A stretch of 46,112 nt of DNA from Modestobacter caceresii (GTDB lineage: Bacteria; Actinomycetota; Actinomycetes; Mycobacteriales; Geodermatophilaceae), in NCBI RefSeq assembly GCF_000761485.1, contig NZ_JPMX01000096.1, forward strand, positions 1 through 46,112, written 5' to 3'. The translations under genes were made by a program, and so were the position numbers. Position 1 is the first letter of the stretch, and each line of letters begins with the position of its first letter. Shown here piece by piece: positions 19,686 to 34,488 of this stretch. Below the pieces are notes generated by a model, which worked only from the letters and a program-made list of their open reading frames with translations, made no database searches and had not been told where the DNA came from.

Positions 19686-19689
<4 letters not shown>
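19369..19689 (+). CDS. Small protein of unknown function in low-GC cassette
   Basis: A 106-residue protein that I cannot assign to a named family. It is basic and Pro/Asn-rich. A striking second half (ATDGADAFQAKP, then DEVWHGFPVNWNMVPIPIRR) ends in a Trp-Ile-Thr...Thr-Pro-Arg segment. One Cys is present, so no zinc finger. Start: GTG 19369 with GGAGG at 19360-19364. Its TGA overlaps the ATG of the next gene (ATGA), so they are coupled. Codon use (ATA, AGG, ACA) is unlike the neighbours. It could be an antitoxin-, inhibitor- or substrate-like partner of the metallopeptidase, which is inference from the operon alone. Confidence 0.7.
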
Positions 19690-22722
<3,033 letters not shown>

Positions 22723-22732
22723 CCCGGCGCTG

Positions 22733-23080
22733 ATGGACGCGATCCCGCCCCGCCGCTTCGAGGAGCTCGTCGCCGACGCCCTGGACGAGGTGCCCGAGGA
22801 GTTGATGGCGCTGCTGGACAACGTCGTCGTGCTGGTCGAGGACCGGAACCCCGAGGAGCCGAGCCTGCTGGGCGTCTACGAGGGGTACGCGCTGACCGAG
22901 CGCGGCTGGGACCACTCGGGCGCGCTGCCGGACCGGATCATGATCTACCGCGCGGCGATCTGCGACATCTGCGACGACGAGGAACAGGTGGCCGACGAGG
23001 TCACGATCACCGTCGTCCACGAGATCGCCCACCACTTCGGCATCGACGAGGAGAAGCTGCACGCCCTCGGCTGGGGCTGA
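22733..23080 (+). CDS. Small metallopeptidase family protein (DUF1025-like zincin)
   Basis: A 115-residue single-domain protein. The zinc-binding helix is TVVHEIAHHFGIDEEKLHAL, an extended HExxHxxGIDE motif typical of the minimal zincins that are common in actinobacteria. The N-terminus RRFEELVADALDEVPEELM is also conserved. The natural substrate is unknown. It begins 10 bp after guaB1 and is probably co-transcribed with it. The start at ATG 22733 has no clear Shine-Dalgarno. Confidence 0.88.
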   Translation: MDAIPPRRFEELVADALDEVPEELMALLDNVVVLVEDRNPEEPSLLGVYEGYALTERGWDHSGALPDRIMIYRAAICDICDDEEQVADEVTITVVHEIAHHFGIDEEKLHALGWG

Positions 23081-25976: not shown

Positions 25977-26930
25977 TCAGACCGCCGTCCCGGCGCGCAC
26001 CCGGGCCACCCACGCCTCGGCTGCGGCGAAGGCCTGGTCGCCCACCCGTTCCTCCACCGGCTTGCCCGGCTGCTCGTCGGCACGCGCGTAGGAGCCGAGG
26101 AAGCGCACCTCCGCACAGCGCCGGTGCAGCGCGGCCAGCGCGTCGCTCACCCGGCGGTCGGACACGTGCCCCTCGACGTCGATGGAGAACGAGTACACGC
26201 CGAGCCGCTCGCGGGTGGGCCGGGACTCGATGCGGGCGAGGCTGATGCCCCGCACCGCGAACTCGGCCAGCAGGTCCAGCAGCGCACCGGTGCGGTCGTG
26301 CACGACGGCGGTGATCGTCGTCTTGTCCGCCCCGGTCGGGGCCGGCAGACCGCCGGGCGGCTCCACCAGCACGAAGCGGGTCACGGCGCCCGGGTGGTCG
26401 GCCAGGTCGGTGACGAGGGCGTCGAGGCCGTAGCGGTCGGCGGCGATCGCCGCGCAGACGGCGGCGTCGAACTCCCCCTCGGCGACCCGGCGGGCGGCGT
26501 CGGCCGTGGAGGCGGCCGGGACGACGTCGGCCCCCGGCAGGAGCTCGGCGATCCGGCCGCGGCACTGGGCCAGCGCGTGCGGGTGGCTCGCCACGGTGCG
26601 CACGTCGGCGGCGTCGGTCCCCGGCCGGACGGCGAGCACGAAGGCCACCTCGAGGAAGACCTCGCGGGTGATCACCAGCGGGTCGCCGGTGACCAGACCG
26701 TCCATGGTGGCCGGCACCGAGCCCTCCACGGAGTTCTCCAGCGGCACCAGGGCGGCGGCGCACTCCCCGTTCCGCACCGCGGTCAGCGCGGCCGCCACGC
26801 TGGCCTCCGGTCGGGTGCCGACCGTCCCCGGCGACCCGGTGACGGTGCCGAGCGCGGCCTCGGCGAAGGTACCCTCGGGGCCCAGATAGGCGAACTCCGT
26901 CGGGGCTGTGCTGCGTGGTGCAGTCGGCAT
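25977..26930 (-). CDS. pheA: Prephenate dehydratase
   Basis: A 317-residue enzyme converting prephenate to phenylpyruvate in phenylalanine biosynthesis. Family signatures: FAYLGPEGTFAEAAL at the N-terminus, AALVPLENSVEGSVPATMD, and NxT-like TRFVLVEPPG closing the catalytic domain. The C-terminal ACT domain (about residues 195-275) contains DRTGALLDLLAEFAVRGISL and the allosteric ESRPTRERLGVYSF. Feedback inhibition by Phe is therefore likely. Start: ATG 26930 with TACCCT 6 nt upstream, hence leaderless. Confidence 0.95.
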   Translation of the reverse strand: MPTAPRSTAPTEFAYLGPEGTFAEAALGTVTGSPGTVGTRPEASVAAALTAVRNGECAAALVPLENSVEGSVPATMDGLVTGDPLVITREVFLEVAFVLAVRPGTDAADVRTVASHPHALAQCRGRIAELLPGADVVPAASTADAARRVAEGEFDAAVCAAIAADRYGLDALVTDLADHPGAVTRFVLVEPPGGLPAPTGADKTTITAVVHDRTGALLDLLAEFAVRGISLARIESRPTRERLGVYSFSIDVEGHVSDRRVSDALAALHRRCAEVRFLGSYARADEQPGKPVEERVGDQAFAAAEAWVARVRAGTAV

Positions 26931-26936
26931 CCGGCG

Positions 26937-26942
26937 AGGGTA
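26937..26942 (-). promoter_or_regulatory. -10 hexamer of the pheA leaderless promoter
   Basis: Minus-strand TACCCT ends 6 nt before the ATG at 26930, with no ribosome binding site. Confidence 0.5.
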
Positions 26943-27055
26943 GTGCGGCCGTACCGGACACCGACTCCCGTCGGGTCCCCGGTGCGGGGGGAGCTGCCTC
27001 GTCACCGGCCGGGCACGCGCACGAGGCGTGCCCCGACAGCTGAGTGGAGGGACGC

Positions 27056-28825
27056 GTGAGCCCTGGGCCGTCCGCCGACGAACGGCTGCAGACCGCCCGC
27101 TGGCGGCTGCTGAACGCCAGCGCCGCCGAGGACGCCCGGGTGTTCGCCGACGAGTTCGCCCTGGCCGCGGACGACCTGGCCGCCACCGGCGAGCCCTGCT
27201 GGGACGCGTGGTCGGCCGCCTTCACCGCCCGCGCAGCGCTCTTCGACGCCGACCTCGACGGCGCGGCGGACGCCGTGGGCGCGGCCCGGGCCGCGCTCGC
27301 GGAGTGCCTCCCGTCCGCCGAGCACGCGCTGACACTGGCCTACCTGGCACACCTGGAGGTGGCCGCCGACCGGTTCGACGCGGCGATGCACCTGGCCGTG
27401 GACGCCAGCCTGCTCGCCGACCAGCTGGCCGGGGAACCGCCCAGCCGACCCCTGCACCAGGCCCACCACTGGCTGTCCCTGGCGCTGACCCGGCTGGACC
27501 TCGAGGAGCTCGCCGTGGCCCAGTCGCTGCGGGGTGCCCGGGTCGCCGCGGCCCTCCCCGACCTCGGCGACCAGTGGCAGCTGTTCCGGCTGTGCGCCCA
27601 GCAGCACGCCGAGCTGGCCCAGACGGTGCACCGGCGCGGCCAGCTCGACCGCTCGCAGCAGCTGGCCCAGGCCGCGCTGGAGTGCGCGACCACCGCCCGT
27701 GCACTGCCCTGGGACCCGAGCGATGCCGACGCCGACCTGCTCGACGTCGTCCAGGCCTGGGCCCTGACCCTGGCCGGCCGGCTCGACGACGCCCTCCCGC
27801 CGCTGCGCCGGGTGCGCCGGCACCTGACGGCCGGGGAGGGCGGTCTGTGGCTGGTCGGGTACACCGACCTGGTGCTGGGCAGGCTGCTGACCCGGCTGTG
27901 CGCCCTGGACCCCGGCGCGCACGGCGAGGAGGCCATCGACCTGCTGGTCACCGCCTCCGGTGCCTTCGCCGCGGTGAACGACCGCCGGCGGTACCGCCAG
28001 TGCCTGCTGGAGCTGGGGCAGGCCACCGCGGCGATGGGCTCCACCGCCGAGGCGCTGCACTGGCTGGAGGCCTACCGGGCCGAGACCACCCGGGCGCACC
28101 GCCGCGGGCGCGAGCTGTGGGCGGAGATGTTCGTGCGCCGCAGCCGGTTGCGCGAGGCCGAGCGGCAGAACGCCGTACTGCGCCGGCACGCCCTCGAGGA
28201 CACCCTGACCGGCCTGGGCAACCGGCGCAGCGCCGAGCGGCGGCTGACCGACCTGCGGTTGGACGTCGAGCCGGTGTCGCTGGCCGTCGTGGACGTCGAC
28301 GGCTTCAAGTCCGTCAACGACCAGAACTCGCACCTGCACGGGGACGCGGTGCTGCGCCGGGTCGCCGAGCTGCTCCGCCAGCACAGCCGCACCGGCGACG
28401 AGGTCTTCCGCTGGGCCGGCGACGAGTTCGTGGTCGTGCTGCCGAACACCACCGAGGCGCAGGCCGTGGTCGCGACGGAACGGTTGCGCAGCGCCGTCGC
28501 CTGCGCCGAGTGGGCCCACCTGCAGATGCCCGCCCCGGTGACCGTCAGCATCGGCGTCGCCACCACGGGGCCGGCCGGCGCGCCGGGGCCGAGGTCCTGG
28601 CGGGAGCTGTTCGACCGGGCCGACCTGAACCTGTTCGGCGCCAAGCGCGGCGGCCGCAACCGGGTCCGGGCGTCCGGCGGGGGGCAGCACGCGCCCGCGC
28701 CCGCCGCGCGGCCCGGCGGGCTGCCGGCCGACGCCTCGGTCGACGACCTGGTGGCCGAGGTCCTCGGCACGACCCCCCGGCGACCGGGCTGGGCCTTCGA
28801 CGACGGCACCGAGGTCGCGTCGTGA
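27056..28825 (+). CDS. TPR-like/GGDEF diguanylate cyclase
   Basis: A 589-residue cytoplasmic protein. Residues 1-370 form an all-helical Ala/Leu-rich region like degenerate TPRs. A GGDEF domain runs from EDTLTGLGNRRS (about 381) to ADLNLFGAKRGGRNRV. The active-site loop is AGDEF at residues 454-458. The inhibitory I-site RTGD lies exactly five residues before it, so c-di-GMP synthesis with product feedback is likely. There are no transmembrane segments, so input must be a cytoplasmic ligand or partner. Start: GTG 27056 with GGAGG at 27046-27050. The stop overlaps the next gene (GTGA). Confidence 0.88.
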   Translation: MSPGPSADERLQTARWRLLNASAAEDARVFADEFALAADDLAATGEPCWDAWSAAFTARAALFDADLDGAADAVGAARAALAECLPSAEHALTLAYLAHLEVAADRFDAAMHLAVDASLLADQLAGEPPSRPLHQAHHWLSLALTRLDLEELAVAQSLRGARVAAALPDLGDQWQLFRLCAQQHAELAQTVHRRGQLDRSQQLAQAALECATTARALPWDPSDADADLLDVVQAWALTLAGRLDDALPPLRRVRRHLTAGEGGLWLVGYTDLVLGRLLTRLCALDPGAHGEEAIDLLVTASGAFAAVNDRRRYRQCLLELGQATAAMGSTAEALHWLEAYRAETTRAHRRGRELWAEMFVRRSRLREAERQNAVLRRHALEDTLTGLGNRRSAERRLTDLRLDVEPVSLAVVDVDGFKSVNDQNSHLHGDAVLRRVAELLRQHSRTGDEVFRWAGDEFVVVLPNTTEAQAVVATERLRSAVACAEWAHLQMPAPVTVSIGVATTGPAGAPGPRSWRELFDRADLNLFGAKRGGRNRVRASGGGQHAPAPAARPGGLPADASVDDLVAEVLGTTPRRPGWAFDDGTEVAS

Positions 28826-31743
28826 GACTGCGGCGCGTCCGTGGTCCAGAGGGGCCGATGGGGCAGGAGGGGCCGGCCGACGCGCCGGTGCGTGACACGC
28901 CGTCGACTCCGGGGCACAGTGCCCTGGTGCCACCCGGTCTCCTGCACCAGCAGGTGAGCTCAGCCCTGGCGAACTGGCAGCTCGACACGGCCGAGACGCT
29001 GCTGCGCGAGATCGACGGCGAACTGCCCCCCGCCCCGGCCGACGACCGCCCGGCGCCGCCGCTCACCTCGCTGGCCCGCGCCTGGGCCGACACGCTCCGT
29101 GCCGAGCTCCTGGTCCGGCGCCTGCGGCGGGCCGGCTACTCCCTGCTGGGCGACCCCCTGGTCGAGGGCGGTCCCGAGCAGGAGGGTCCGCTGGACCTGC
29201 ACGGCCCGGTCGGCGCCCCGGGCGAGGCCGTGGACCGCGACAGCCGGTCGGAGTCGGCCACGCACGCGGCCCTGGCCATCTCCCTGGTCCGCTCGGCACG
29301 CGCGGCCTTCGACGCCCAGGACGACGACCTGCAGCGCGCCGCCGGCCTGGCCCGGCACGCCCGGATCGAGCTGCTGTCCCGCCGGGTCGACGCGGCGATG
29401 GACGAGGCGGTCGAGGCAGCCAGCCTGCTGGACCCGGCCCTGCCGCCGAGCCCGCTGCTGGTGCACACGCTGAGCTCCCTGGCCGCCGTGCTGGCCGACC
29501 TGGAGCTCATGCCGCTGGCCCTGGACTACCAGCGCCGGGCCGCCGACGTCACCGCCGAGGCGATCGGCGCGGCCGGCACCGACTCCGAGGCGGGCTCCGT
29601 CGACGCGCTCGCCGGGGAGGCCGCGACCCGGCTGGCCGCGCTGTGCGCCGAGGTCGGCGAGGGCCTGCTCGACGACGGCGGCGCCGACGCCGCGGCACCG
29701 CACTTCGCCGAGGCCCGCGACCTCGCCGTCCGGGCGCTGGGCCAGCTGCCCCCCGGCGTCCCCGGGCTGCTGGACGCGCAGGTGGTGCACGGCTGGGCGT
29801 TGGTCGGCCTGGGCGAGCACGCCGCCGCCCGGTCCCTGCTGACCAGCGTCGCCAGGGCGGCGTCGAGCGTGGAGGACCGCGCCCTGCTGGCCTCCGCCGA
29901 GCTGGGCCTGGGCCGCGCGCTGCGCCGCTCGGGTGACCCCCGGGCCGCCGACGACCACCTGGCCACCGCACTGGCCACCGCGACCGAGCACGGGCTGCCG
30001 CGGTTGCGCCGGGCCGCGCTGCGCGAGCTGTGCACGCTGCACGCCGAGCTGGACGACGCCGCCCGGGCGTTGCCCTACCTGCAGGCCTACCTCGCCGACG
30101 AGCTGGACCGGGTCGACGAGCGGCGCACCCGCTGGGTCGAGCTGTTCGGCCGGCGCAAGAGCCTGCTGGAGACCGAGCGGGCCGCCGGTCAGCTGCGCCG
30201 CCAGGCCTACGAGGACCCGCTCACCCACTTGCCCAACCGCCGTTACGCGGAGGCCCGGCTCGACGGGCTGCTGTCGGCCGGGGCGGTGCCCGCACTGGCC
30301 GTGGTCGACGTCGACCGGTTCAAGGCGATCAACGACGCCGCCGGGCACCCGACCGGCGACGCCGTGCTGCGTGCGGTCGGCCAGCTGCTGGTCGACGGCT
30401 GCCGGGACACCGACGAGGTGTGCCGCTGGGCCGGCGACGAGTTCGTCATCCTGCTGCCGGACACGACCTCCGAGCAGGCCGAGCGGGCGATGGAGCGCAT
30501 CCGCCGGTCGATCGCCGCGCACGACTGGTCGGCCCTCGGCGTGGAGGTGCCGGTGCGGATCAGCGTCGGCATCGCCCAGGCGGCCCGTGGCGACGACCGG
30601 CGCACCCTGTTCGCCGCCGCCGACGGGGTGCTCTACGACGCCAAGCGGGCCGGGCGGGACCGGGTCGTCCGGCTGTCCGGGGTGACCCAGACCCGGGCCG
30701 CCGACGCAGCCCCGACGACCATCGACGGTCAGGTAGCCGAGGCCCTGCCGGCGATCGACCCGTCTCCTGCGGCGGACGACGCGGGCCCGGTCGAGGCCAC
30801 CGAGCACGCCCCGGCGCCGCCTCCCGTCCGCGACGTGACCGCCTCCCCGCTGCCCGAGGAGGACGACGAACAGCCGGCGGACGCCACCGGCGGCTTCGCC
30901 CCCCTGCTGGTCGAGCCGACCGCGGAGGAGCTCGCCGTGCAGGAGCCCGCCGTCGAGGCGGCCGACGCCGAGCCGCCGGCCCGGACGGGCAGCCCGCTGG
31001 ACGAGCTCCCCGGGGGTCCGTCGGCCGGGCGACGGCTGGAGTCCGCCGAGCCCGCGGCTCCGGTGGTGAGCCCGTCGCCGTCCCCTGCTCCGATGATCGA
31101 CGTGCCGGCCCTGACGACGGGCCCGGACGTCATCTGGGGCACCGGACGCAGCACCGAGCAGGTGCTCGCCCTGGTGCGCGAGGCCCGCCGCGAGCACCCC
31201 CAGCACCCGGCGGTGGTGGTGCGGGCCAGCGCCGACACCCTGGTCGCGCTGGCCACCGAGCACGACGCGTACACGACGATGGACGCCGCGGCGATGTCCG
31301 CCGCCGTCGGCCCGGTGCCCGAGCCGGTCGGCCGGGTGGGCGTGCTCTGCGCCAGCAGCGGCGACACCCCGATCGCCGCCGAGGCGGCCTTCGTGGCGCG
31401 GGTCACCGGCACCGAGGTGGTCCGGGTCGACGACGTCGGCGGCAACCGGATCCGCCCGCTGCTCACCGACCGTTCGCTGCTCACCGACGTCGACTGCCTC
31501 GTCGTCGTCGCCGGTCTGGACGCCGCGCTGGCCAGCGTGGTCAGCGGGCTGACCGAGGTGCCGGTGGTCGCCGTCCCGACGTCGGCCGGCCAGGGCGCCA
31601 GCTCCTTCGGCGGGTTCAGCGCGCTGCTCACCATGCTCAACTCCGCCGCGCCCGGCGTCGTGGTCAGCAACATCGACAACGGCTGGTCCGCCGGCGTCTT
31701 CGCCGCCCGCATCGCCCGCCGGACCGCGTCCCTGCCGAGCTGA
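28822..31743 (+). CDS. TPR-like/GGDEF protein fused to a LarB domain
   Basis: A 973-residue fusion. Residues 40-460 are helical TPR-like repeats. The GGDEF domain (about 463-620) has AGDEF at 537-541 and the I-site RDTD five residues before. A 140-residue Pro/Ala/Glu-rich linker follows. Residues 768-973 are a LarB domain (AIR-carboxylase-like): GPDVIWGTGRSTEQV, VGVLCASSGDTPIAAEAAFV, VVVAGLDAALASVVSGL, AVPTSAGQG and NIDNGWSAG. LarB makes the pyridinium dicarboxylate precursor of the nickel-pincer cofactor. At the probable catalytic Cys position (MLNSC in relatives) this protein has Ala942. No stop, Shine-Dalgarno or start context separates the domains. Start: GTG 28822 or ATG 28858 (AGAGGGG before it). 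larC follows directly. Confidence 0.88.
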   Translation: MRLRRVRGPEGPMGQEGPADAPVRDTPSTPGHSALVPPGLLHQQVSSALANWQLDTAETLLREIDGELPPAPADDRPAPPLTSLARAWADTLRAELLVRRLRRAGYSLLGDPLVEGGPEQEGPLDLHGPVGAPGEAVDRDSRSESATHAALAISLVRSARAAFDAQDDDLQRAAGLARHARIELLSRRVDAAMDEAVEAASLLDPALPPSPLLVHTLSSLAAVLADLELMPLALDYQRRAADVTAEAIGAAGTDSEAGSVDALAGEAATRLAALCAEVGEGLLDDGGADAAAPHFAEARDLAVRALGQLPPGVPGLLDAQVVHGWALVGLGEHAAARSLLTSVARAASSVEDRALLASAELGLGRALRRSGDPRAADDHLATALATATEHGLPRLRRAALRELCTLHAELDDAARALPYLQAYLADELDRVDERRTRWVELFGRRKSLLETERAAGQLRRQAYEDPLTHLPNRRYAEARLDGLLSAGAVPALAVVDVDRFKAINDAAGHPTGDAVLRAVGQLLVDGCRDTDEVCRWAGDEFVILLPDTTSEQAERAMERIRRSIAAHDWSALGVEVPVRISVGIAQAARGDDRRTLFAAADGVLYDAKRAGRDRVVRLSGVTQTRAADAAPTTIDGQVAEALPAIDPSPAADDAGPVEATEHAPAPPPVRDVTASPLPEEDDEQPADATGGFAPLLVEPTAEELAVQEPAVEAADAEPPARTGSPLDELPGGPSAGRRLESAEPAAPVVSPSPSPAPMIDVPALTTGPDVIWGTGRSTEQVLALVREARREHPQHPAVVVRASADTLVALATEHDAYTTMDAAAMSAAVGPVPEPVGRVGVLCASSGDTPIAAEAAFVARVTGTEVVRVDDVGGNRIRPLLTDRSLLTDVDCLVVVAGLDAALASVVSGLTEVPVVAVPTSAGQGASSFGGFSALLTMLNSAAPGVVVSNIDNGWSAGVFAARIARRTASLPS

Positions 31744-31823: not shown

Positions 31824-33026
31824 GTGACCATCGGGTGGCTGGACCTCTCGGCGGGTGCCTCCGGCGACATGCTGCTCGGCGCGCTGGTCGACGCCGGGGT
31901 GCCGTTGGACGTGCTGGCCGACGCCGTCGCCGCGCTGCCGGTCGAGCCGGTCACCCTCACCGCCGAGCCGACCACCCGGCACGGGCTGGGCGCCACCCGG
32001 GTGCACGTGCACGCCCCGGCCAGCGACGTCCACCGCACCTGGGCCGACGTCCGGACGGTCCTGGCCGACGCCGCACTCCCCCCGGCCGTCCGGGACGGTG
32101 CCCTGGCCGTCTTCGAACGGCTCGCGGTCGCCGAGGGCCGCGTGCACCGGGTGTCCGCCGACGAGGTGCACTTCCACGAGGTCGGGGCCCTGGACGCGCT
32201 GGCCGACGTCGTCGGGGTGGTCGCCGGGTTCGCCCACCTGGCGCTGGAGCGGCTCACCGCCTCCCCCGTCGCGCTGGGCAGCGGCTCGGCCCGCGGGGCG
32301 CACGGCGTCGTCCCGGTGCCCGGCCCCGCCGTCCTGGAGCTGCTGCGCGGCGTACCGGTGGTCGCCGGCCCGGTGCCGGCGGAGACGTGCACCCCGACCG
32401 GTGCGGCGCTGCTCGCCGCGCACGTGCAGGAGTGGACGACGCTGCCGCCGATGCGGGTGGCCCGGGTCGGGTCGGGTGCCGGCGGCCGCGACCCCGAGCA
32501 GCTGCCCAACCTCGTGCGCCTGGTGCTCGGCGAGCCGGTGGAGGAGCCGGCCACCGGGCTGCTGCTGGAGACCAACGTCGACGACCTCGACCCCCGGCTG
32601 TGGCCCGGTGTGCTCGCCGAGCTGCTGGCGGCCGGGGCCTCGGACGCCTGGCTCACCCCGGTCCTGATGAAGAAGGGCCGCCCGGCGCACACGCTGTCGG
32701 TGCTCTGCCGGCCCGCGGTGCGCGCGGCGGTGCAGGACGTCGTCGTGGCCTCGACCTCGACCATCGGGCTGCGCGTCCAGGAGGTGCAGAAGGTCGCCCT
32801 GCAGCGGGTCGAGCGCACCGTGCCGGTGCTGGGCGGCTCCGTGGGCGTCAAGGTCGCGGACATCGACGGCCGGGTGGTGAACGTCAGCGTCGAGTTCGAG
32901 GACGTGGCGGCCCTGGCCCGCTCGCTCGGGCTGCCGGCGAAGGAGGTGCTGCGGGCGGCGACCGCAGCGGCGCACCGGGCCTACCCGGGGACGTCGGCTA
33001 CGCTCCTGCACCCAGAAGGGGAGTAG
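31824..33026 (+). CDS. larC: Nickel-pincer cofactor biosynthesis protein LarC
   Basis: A 400-residue cyclometallase that inserts nickel into the pyridinium bisthiocarboxylate nucleotide, using CTP. Family blocks: GWLDLSAGASGDMLLGALVD at the N-terminus, VHFHEVGALDALADVVG, the TP-TGAALLAA motif and LLLETNVDDLDPRLWPGVL. The C-terminal LarC2 part has WLTPVLMKKGRPAHTLSVLC and VKVADIDGRVVNVSVEFEDV. Here LarC1 and LarC2 form one continuous frame, unlike the programmed frameshift of Lactobacillus. It is 80 bp after the GGDEF-LarB gene. LarE and the client enzyme LarA are not in the window. The TAG stop is inside the following riboswitch. Confidence 0.94.
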   Translation: MTIGWLDLSAGASGDMLLGALVDAGVPLDVLADAVAALPVEPVTLTAEPTTRHGLGATRVHVHAPASDVHRTWADVRTVLADAALPPAVRDGALAVFERLAVAEGRVHRVSADEVHFHEVGALDALADVVGVVAGFAHLALERLTASPVALGSGSARGAHGVVPVPGPAVLELLRGVPVVAGPVPAETCTPTGAALLAAHVQEWTTLPPMRVARVGSGAGGRDPEQLPNLVRLVLGEPVEEPATGLLLETNVDDLDPRLWPGVLAELLAAGASDAWLTPVLMKKGRPAHTLSVLCRPAVRAAVQDVVVASTSTIGLRVQEVQKVALQRVERTVPVLGGSVGVKVADIDGRVVNVSVEFEDVAALARSLGLPAKEVLRAATAAAHRAYPGTSATLLHPEGE

Positions 33027-33115: not shown

Positions 33116-33155
33116 AGTCCACCCATCGGTGCGCTGCCGGACGGAGGCGCCCCGC

Positions 33156-33791
33156 ATGCCCCGGCCGGTCGCGCGAGCAGAGAGAGAACTCGTGGTCCTG
33201 TCCGTCGTCCTGGCCGCCTTCGTGCTGATCCTCCCCGTCGAACTGCCCGACAAGACGCTGTTCGCCACCCTGGTGCTGGCCACCCGGTTCCCGCCGCTGC
33301 CGGTGTTCGTCGGCGTCGGCCTGGCCTTCGGCCTGCAGGTCGCGATCGCGGTGACCGCCGGCAGCCTGCTCTCGCTGCTGCCCGAGGCGGTGGTCAGCGC
33401 CGTGGTCGCGGTGCTGTTCCTGACCGGCGCCGTGCTGCTGTGGCGGGAGTCCCGCAAGGGCGGGGACGAGGACGAGGCCACCGCGCAGGCCCGGGAGCAG
33501 ACGTCGTTCGTGCGTGCGGCGGCGATCTCCTTCGGTGTCCTGTTCGCCGCCGAGTGGGGCGACCTCTCCCAGCTGGCCACCGCCGGACTGGCCGCCCGCT
33601 ACGAAGAGCCGCTCTCGGTCTTCGTCGGGGCCTGGGCGGCGCTGCTGGTGATCTCCGGGCTGGCCGCGTTCCTGGGCCGCAAGCTCGCCGACCGCCTCCC
33701 GGTGACGCTGCTGCACCGGGTCGCGGCCGGGCTCTTCCTGGTCTTCGCCGTCGTCGCGGTGGTGGAGACCGTCCGCACCCTGACCGGCTGA
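33156..33791 (+). CDS. TMEM165/GDT1 (UPF0016) family manganese transporter
   Basis: A 211-residue inner-membrane protein with about six transmembrane helices in two inverted halves. Each half carries the family's metal motif: ELPDKT in the first (about residue 28) and EWGDLS in the second. An acidic/charged cytoplasmic loop (SRKGGDEDEATAQ) lies between. Relatives export Mn2+ (or exchange Ca/Mn with H+). The riboswitch in front fits expression when manganese is high. Start: ATG 33156 with GGAGG 8 nt upstream; GTG 33192 is a weaker choice. Confidence 0.88.
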   Translation: MPRPVARAERELVVLSVVLAAFVLILPVELPDKTLFATLVLATRFPPLPVFVGVGLAFGLQVAIAVTAGSLLSLLPEAVVSAVVAVLFLTGAVLLWRESRKGGDEDEATAQAREQTSFVRAAAISFGVLFAAEWGDLSQLATAGLAARYEEPLSVFVGAWAALLVISGLAAFLGRKLADRLPVTLLHRVAAGLFLVFAVVAVVETVRTLTG

Positions 33792-33900: not shown

Positions 33901-34488
33901 ATGCAGACGATCAAGCTCGAGGAGTCGCAGGACGTGCTGGTGCAGACGGCGGCGGCCGTCGCCGCCCAGCGCCAGTTCGCGCTGCGGCTGCGGCAGCGGA
34001 CCGTGGCCGACCCGCTCACCGGGCTGCCGGTGCGCAGCCTGCTCATCGACCGGCTGGAGCTCGCCCTGGCCGCCGCGGGCCCGGCCACCGGCCGGCTCGC
34101 CGTCCTCTCCTGCAACCTCGACGGCATCACCGTCCTGGAGGACACCCGCGGCTCCGCCGTCGCTGATGCCGCCCGGGCCGAGGCGGCCGGCCGGCTGGTC
34201 GGCGCCGTGCGCCAGGGGGACGTCGTCGCCCGGATCAGCGCCCAGACCTTCGTCCTGCTCTGCCCCGGCATCCAGGTCGCCGAGGATGCGCAGGGCATCG
34301 CCCTGCGGATCGCCGCCGCGTTCGACGAGCCGCTGCGGCCGCTGCCGGGCGTGGAGCACCGGGTGCGGCTCAGCGTCGGCGTCGCGCTCTCCGGCCGGGC
34401 CTCGACGCCGGAGTCGCTGGTGGCGTCGGCCAACGAGGCGATGACCTCCATCCGGCACGACCGCCAGGGCAGCGGCCGGCACGGCTGA
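33901..34488 (+). CDS. Degenerate GGDEF-domain protein
   Basis: A 195-residue protein that is essentially one GGDEF domain. The start DPLTGLPVRSLLIDRLELAL and the end RVRLSVGVALS are clear. The active-site loop is replaced: ARISAQTFVLLCPG stands where R-x-GGDEF-xxLL is expected. No RxxD I-site is placed correctly. It cannot be a normal diguanylate cyclase, and a c-di-GMP/GTP-binding or scaffolding role is possible. Start: ATG 33901 with GGGAGAGG before it. A short GGGGC/GCCCC hairpin lies at 33822-33837 between it and the transporter. Confidence 0.8.
   Translation: MQTIKLEESQDVLVQTAAAVAAQRQFALRLRQRTVADPLTGLPVRSLLIDRLELALAAAGPATGRLAVLSCNLDGITVLEDTRGSAVADAARAEAAGRLVGAVRQGDVVARISAQTFVLLCPGIQVAEDAQGIALRIAAAFDEPLRPLPGVEHRVRLSVGVALSGRASTPESLVASANEAMTSIRHDRQGSGRHG

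Follow-up and report, generated by a model that had tools for sequence, protein, structure and literature searches.

In a 46,112-nucleotide stretch of the Modestobacter caceresii genome (contig NZ_JPMX01000096.1; hereafter the window), we analyzed a gene in which TPR-like repeats and a GGDEF domain are fused, through a long linker, to a domain resembling LarB, an enzyme of nickel-pincer cofactor synthesis. Comparison of sequences and structure models leads us to describe its product as a predicted diguanylate cyclase that has captured a pseudoenzyme as an extra domain (pseudo-LarB), which is retained throughout the family Geodermatophilaceae independently of the pathway that it came from. The gene comprises the following features.

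28858..31743, forward strand: fusion gene (TPR-like region, GGDEF domain, linker and pseudo-LarB domain), encoding 961 amino acids, or 973 if the start is GTG 28822
28939..30057, forward strand: TPR-like helical region, residues 40–412 of protein P0001, with weak TPR_12 and TPR_10 matches under their cut-offs
30058..30207, forward strand: single long helix from the TPR region to the GGDEF domain, residues 413–462 in the AlphaFold secondary structure
30205..30663, forward strand: GGDEF domain, residues 462–614 (PF00990, 132.7 bits against a cut-off of 23.8; TIGR00254, 125.5 bits)
30403-30414, forward strand: I-site RDTD, within the GGDEF domain
30430-30444, forward strand: AGDEF signature, within the GGDEF domain
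30685..31122, forward strand: Pro/Ala/Glu-rich linker of ~145 residues, predicted to be disordered, with a predicted local distance difference test score (pLDDT) below 50 for residues 622–767
31123..31719, forward strand: pseudo-LarB domain, matched by NCBIfam LarB and Pfam AIRC
31258..31284, forward strand: EHDAYTTMD motif of the pseudo-LarB clade, invariant in all 38 rows of alignment A1
31645..31647, forward strand: Ala codon at the site of the catalytic Cys221 of L. plantarum LarB, placed by alignment to that protein

All of these parts lie in one open frame with no stop between them, as an earlier note on this DNA, made from the sequence alone, had described. Among relatives, the GGDEF and LarB parts were uninterrupted by a stop or frameshift in 49 of the 52 loci that carry both, a count that leaves aside six of 58 loci, namely three without a GGDEF match (L018, L030 and L043) and three with the LarB piece near a contig edge and a GGDEF match that belongs to a different gene (L019, L037 and L051). 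Translation more likely begins at ATG 28858 than at GTG 28822, because the window's own database protein (P0002) has 961 amino acids; GTG 28822 overlaps the stop codon of the preceding gene, and a purine-rich stretch precedes both candidates. The earlier note had also pointed to 31093 as the place from which a separate LarB might start. Such a polypeptide seems unlikely: the ATG at this position was shared by only one of 55 loci scanned (L046), with no Shine-Dalgarno-like match before it, and in L018, which lies outside that scan, the corresponding codon is GTG. Some ATG, GTG or TTG occurred near the LarB domain start in 40 of the 55 loci, and a GTG with a Shine-Dalgarno-like match in six, at varying positions.

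The cyclase half looks active by sequence. The complete GGDEF domain reported in the earlier note, with both its signature and its RxxD I-site, was evident here too, at a Pfam score well over the cut-off, and RxxD stood at the standard spacing in all 50 fusion GGDEF domains examined (excluding three further matches in different genes, those of L019, L037 and L051), of which 46 had AGDEF and four AGDEY. Searching a protein set of ~5.8 billion for the GGDEF–LarB architecture, as the note had suggested, returned 309 fusion matches; all 120 of these that were listed, and hence at least 120, carry both GGDEF and AIRC Pfam domains (these 120 are the relatives counted below). Among them the final F of the signature was kept in 98 and the signature was AGDEY in 22. 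We regard the fusion protein as an active-looking diguanylate cyclase. Upstream of the GGDEF domain, the TPR-like region is all-helical in the AlphaFold model, with high confidence from about residue 220, and the joining helix dips to a pLDDT below 50 at residues 441–453. The linker ranges from 80 to 193 residues (median 137) in the 101 relatives in which a script could measure it. The fusion resembles known sensor-coupled diguanylate cyclases in its I-site-bearing GGDEF domain and in the long helix that links this domain to a helical region at the N-terminus; unlike them, it carries an extra C-terminal domain, on a disordered linker, that was formerly a biosynthetic enzyme.

That C-terminal domain belongs to the LarB/PurE fold, and LarB is its best family match. 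The NCBIfam LarB model (NF033503) matched residues 768–966 over profile positions 12–208 of 209 with 165.3 bits, just under the cut-off of 175; the domain alone scored 169.7 bits, still under this equivalog cut-off, which the relatives from G093 and G090 pass (178.7 and 177.3 bits). Pfam AIRC matched residues 839–966 with 37.9 bits. The "full LarB-like domain" of the earlier note is thus near-complete in its span of the profile but incomplete as an enzyme, with Ala in place of the catalytic Cys. Cys221, which we take to be the nucleophile of LarB, is reportedly assigned this role in a 2021 PNAS paper on LarB, the title of which names a cysteinyl-pyridine intermediate; Ser127 of the GTSD motif is presumably catalytic as well.

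We compared 49 pseudo-LarBs (excluding the partial L024, L043 and L051) with 34 canonical rows (33 distinct, with one gene present twice). All 34 canonical rows have Cys at position 221, where the pseudo rows have Ala (39), Gly (4), Ser (3), Thr (2) or Pro (1); Ser127 was likewise Ser in all 34 canonical rows, and in the pseudo rows Gly (26), Ala (20), Val (2) or a gap (1). T126, Y204, K57, H158, R159, residues 154–156 and F234 were lost in more than 80% of pseudo rows, with H158 retained in only 4 of 49, while D128, E134, D151, A177, G178, P199, T200, S201, D231 and G233 were kept in more than 90%. Across the wider set, Cys221, Ser127, Tyr204 and Lys57 were absent from all 120 relatives and His158 from 114, with six retaining it. 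Cys residues that might substitute for Cys221 fared poorly as candidates: the conserved Cys at column 135 of alignment A1 starts a core strand, and the one close to S127 is not kept throughout. With its nucleophile and further catalytic positions lost, the LarB part is, on this alignment evidence, a catalytically dead pseudoenzyme. It differs from L. plantarum LarB (PDB 7mj0-7mj2, 8soq, 8stc, 8std) in lacking Cys221, Ser127, Tyr204 and Lys57, in being fused to a cyclase, and in being kept without the pathway. By alignment it also lacks the His of the SAHR-type loop of PurE, the 5-aminoimidazole ribonucleotide carboxylase (PF00731); we assume that this His has a functional role, and PurE His mutants are named in structure titles. 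PurE and LarB dominated the domain's list of structural matches, a list in which the absence of other folds is uninformative.

We then asked how the domain is distributed relative to nickel-pincer genes. The relatives' names (Modestobacter, Blastococcus, Geodermatophilus, Klenkia and Goekera) place them in Geodermatophilaceae, and in a tally of 112 genomes of this family pseudo-LarB was found in 102, a match-based count in which the fused state was checked at the frame-scanned loci. Canonical larB was found in 73 of the 112, larE over its cut-off in 72, larC in 82 and larA in 35. Canonical larB and larE went together (both in 72, larB only in one, neither in 39), and pseudo-LarB did not track larE (Fisher p 0.09). 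Among the 102 genomes with pseudo-LarB, 39 lacked larE over the cut-off and 38 lacked both canonical larB and larE; in 28 of those 38, each at least 90% complete, none of larA, larB, larC and larE was found. Three larC-free loci on single contigs, L109 (G093), L110 (G022) and L111 (G043), have tandem cyclases and the fusion between pheA and a GDT1-type gene. Retention of pseudo-LarB is uncoupled from its pathway of origin. Some borderline copies affect the tally: that of G097 is a fragment of 61 positions where a contig ends; that of G107 has an eroded C-terminal half, with both pieces in one frame and EHDAYTTMD kept; and G071 was counted as lacking the domain, although a stretch of 33 positions at the edge of one of its contigs could belong to one.

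The window's own genome carries a Cys-bearing canonical larB (233.9 bits) on another contig (G000:C63), beside larE. This settles the earlier note's question of whether larB exists separately and disposes of the idea that it is missing elsewhere in the genome. The two genes are convergent neighbors (L002, G000:C63:8041-11430) located away from larC, and larA lies on yet another contig (C75).

These observations bear on the interpretation offered in the earlier note, that the fused LarB is an active, alternative LarB whose cofactor synthesis is gated by second-messenger state. The GGDEF–LarB architecture and the larC gene directly downstream, on which that interpretation was built, are both real, with larC also near the fusion in many other loci, and the LarB family match and the two relatives over the cut-off fit it. 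We nonetheless consider an active, c-di-GMP-gated enzyme highly improbable and have set it aside, given a catalytic Cys that is absent from 120 of 120 relatives with no replacement, a window score under the family cut-off, a canonical larB in the same genome, and a fusion that persists in genomes without larC and larE, including the 28 pathway-free genomes.

Selection appears to have preserved the domain. For pseudo-LarB, the ratio of nonsynonymous to synonymous substitution rates (dN/dS) was 0.08 to 0.36 in seven pairs of loci without larC (L016/L017, L016/L109, L047/L049, L044/L031, L036/L050, L039/L050 and L110/L045) and 0.05 to 0.24 in eight other pairs, all pairs being hand-chosen; by this measure, purifying selection maintains pseudo-LarB even in the absence of the pathway. 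The pattern of conservation has also changed. In canonical LarBs (sets of 13 and 12 sequences) mean pairwise identity was 0.74–0.76 for residues 48–112 and 0.90–0.93 for the catalytic part, 113–245, and in the 49 pseudo sequences it was 0.83 for the N-terminal part and 0.74 for the catalytic part; the sets differ in divergence, so the values are to be compared only within each set. Alignment thus indicates that conservation is shifted to the N-terminal half in pseudo-LarB.

The proposal that the fusion is a decaying relic or an assembly artifact without function draws on a few broken linkers and one near-complete genome without the domain, all described below. With 49 of 52 loci in frame, dN/dS well under 1, and the domain present in 102 of 112 genomes and the fusion in many separate assemblies, we assign it a negligible probability.

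The neighborhood suggests how the fusion came about. The genes flanking it are as follows.

25977..27005, reverse strand: pheA, prephenate dehydratase (PDT, 160.7 bits; ACT, 39.3 bits), forming the left border of the locus
27044..28825, forward strand: GGDEF protein without LarB (GGDEF, 110.5 bits), a tandem paralogue of the fusion
31824..33026, forward strand: larC, nickel insertion protein of the nickel-pincer pathway (PF01969, 432.3 bits; TIGR00299, 191.7 bits)

We regard the two cyclases as tandem paralogues because they are 38% identical over 533 alignment columns; AGDEF and RxxD were present in the upstream gene at all 46 loci scanned. The pheA gene occupies the same place in relatives and in some outgroups, and wherever the upstream side of a pseudo-LarB locus was on the contig, two TPR-GGDEF genes lay between pheA and larB, the second fused to larB. 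In related families, four of nine outgroup loci (L125, L126, L128 and L131) have pheA(-), larB(+) and larC(+) in the same place; there, larB differs in being standalone and Cys-bearing, with no cyclase match between. The order pheA, larB, larC also occurs in genus g8 of the same family (L105-L107). All nine outside-family larB loci that were read, from at least 64 genomes with a match, were standalone with Cys.

In a 75-row tree, pseudo-LarBs formed one clade with 100/100 support and a long stem (0.63), and larE-linked larB fell in a clade apart; the tree is midpoint-rooted with weak deep forks, so that any placement of the sister of the pseudo clade is tentative. Descent of the pseudo domain from the larE-linked copy that these genomes also carry was considered; the tree sets that copy in a clade of its own, within the limits of the midpoint root, the long pseudo stem and the weak deep forks. 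Among 397 sampled genomes of the order, no match outside the window's family exceeded 215 bits; pseudo copies within the family score 205 to 370 bits (the eroded G107 copy excepted), such that diverged pseudo copies overlap outside-family matches in score. The shared position and single clade suggest that the fusion arose once: a tandem TPR-GGDEF pair would have come between pheA and an ancestral larB-larC, and its second gene would have fused with larB, with Cys-bearing larB copies elsewhere supplying the enzyme where the pathway persists.

What might a dead LarB do for a cyclase? We think it reasonably probable that the LarB part of this diguanylate cyclase, dead as an enzyme, has been retained in a non-catalytic role, most likely that of a tethered oligomerization module. 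PurE-type proteins are oligomeric, and GGDEF domains work as dimers; an octamer is named in the title of a PurE-type structure. Pseudo-LarB may thus act through its PurE/LarB fold, perhaps with small-ligand binding, and its oligomerization would raise the local GGDEF concentration or place the cyclase at a target. The TPR part and the long helix before the GGDEF domain would form the input side, taking a protein signal, and a ligand in the remodeled pocket could tune assembly. A rigid allosteric push is unlikely because a flexible tether separates pseudo-LarB from the catalytic domain that it follows. Oligomerization, ligand binding and an effect on c-di-GMP are all inferred.

A possibility raised in the earlier note is that the domain senses a nicotinate/NAD-type nucleotide. 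In its specific form, pseudo-LarB would bind nicotinic acid adenine dinucleotide, nicotinamide adenine dinucleotide (NAD) or a relative without turnover and set c-di-GMP by NAD-precursor status. The retained fold and several kept LarB-conserved residues are compatible with this, LarB structures have been solved with NAD and adenosine monophosphate (7mj1 and 7mj0), and the natural replacements of S127 (Gly in 99 and Ala in 21 of the 120 relatives) resemble the S127A variant named in the titles of 8soq, 8stc and 8std. The loss of K57, R159, Y204, VAG 154–156 and mostly H158 as well has probably changed the chemistry of the pocket, however, the 80–193-residue linker is unlike the rigid helix that couples GGDEF input domains, and it is the N-terminal half that is now the better conserved. 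We therefore judge a nucleotide sensor unlikely, and give the same low standing to its broader version, in which a dead pincer-pathway enzyme became a ligand-responsive cyclase module by which a nicotinate-type nucleotide sets c-di-GMP family-wide, the receptor outliving the pathway.

The better-conserved N-terminal half admits another reading, in which this half, through EHDAYTTMD, and the linker would attach the cyclase to another protein, for instance canonical LarB, LarC or an effector of c-di-GMP. The motif, invariant in alignment A1, survives even in the eroded G107 copy; in the wider set it was exact in 88 of 120 relatives, differed by a single residue in 18 and by more in 14, and those 14 speak against docking through it. 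The otherwise variable linker contains GGFAPLL near residue 692 of P0001, present in 63 of 120 relatives, which may be a docking motif. LarB and LarC could not be general partners, since 28 genomes are without both, and we find a partner-binding tether distinctly doubtful.

Several points weigh against a tethered oligomerization module retained throughout the family. The linker frame changes in L137 and L141, and the stop in L143, break the fusion; that of L141 points to an assembly error because its pheA is also broken, and that of L137 may be a real split. The near-complete genome G081 has no pseudo-LarB match, so the domain is not indispensable; the copies of G107, G005, G019 and G020 are strongly diverged, and the 14 relatives with more than one change in EHDAYTTMD indicate that the motif is not essential everywhere. 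Cyclase activity may vary and is possibly lost in some of the 22 relatives with AGDEY, and the full-length model (predicted template-modeling score 0.47) gives no confident domain arrangement. Adjacency of pheA and larB holds in only four of nine outgroup loci, with pheA kilobases off in L127 and L129 and off the stretch in L130, L132 and L133, and the larC near many fusions leaves room for a pathway link there. Cyclase activity, the oligomer and the ligand are each a prediction.

The locus offers a clean natural example of how an enzyme can become a signaling component without catalysis, with the apparent before and after states at one syntenic place, and a ligand, if found, would be an unexpected input to c-di-GMP signaling. 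If the fusion gene were annotated as larB, nickel-pincer synthesis would be wrongly predicted for genomes of Geodermatophilaceae (38 of 102 genomes lack canonical larB and larE). The literature searched, mostly without subscription papers, contained no publication linking the nickel-pincer cofactor and a diguanylate cyclase and, in line with the earlier note, no description of a GGDEF–LarB fusion. Machinery for c-di-GMP is abundant in the genome, with 30 GGDEF and 22 EAL matches (21 of the latter over the cut-off). According to PMC8325347, twin-motif RsiG, a c-di-GMP-binding anti-sigma factor, occurs in 16 of 16 surveyed species of the family.

Other observations concern individual genomes and neighboring genes. 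The larC 3′ of the fusion has a normal score. Five g2 genomes (G002, G011, G013, G015 and G018) have larC without canonical larB or larE, at lowered scores of 312–362 bits, and their larC looks like a gene in decay. G091, of the window's genus (L137-L140), has two canonical larB-larE pairs, a larB fragment by a third larE, and two larC genes, and its fusion carries a linker frame change. L030, which carries the pseudo-LarB locus with 73% identity, comes from a record labeled 'Bacillus sp. AZ43', probably in error. The GDT1-type cation exporter gene (33129-33791, forward strand) stays near the fusion in larC-free L016, L017, L031, L044, L048 and L109-L111; its dN/dS comparison was discarded, as dN exceeded 1 in some pairs. 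The cluster includes one more GGDEF gene, the third and a short one (33901-34488, forward strand; 73.9 bits); its signature reads SAQTF by eye, and it is probably not a cyclase. Farther upstream, an IrrE/M78-peptidase-like open reading frame (19686-21251, forward strand) and a neighboring frame without a Pfam match (21274-22821; minus strand tested) lie in a stretch of low GC content, which over 18–22 kb, taken in 2-kb steps, is 0.68 and then 0.65.
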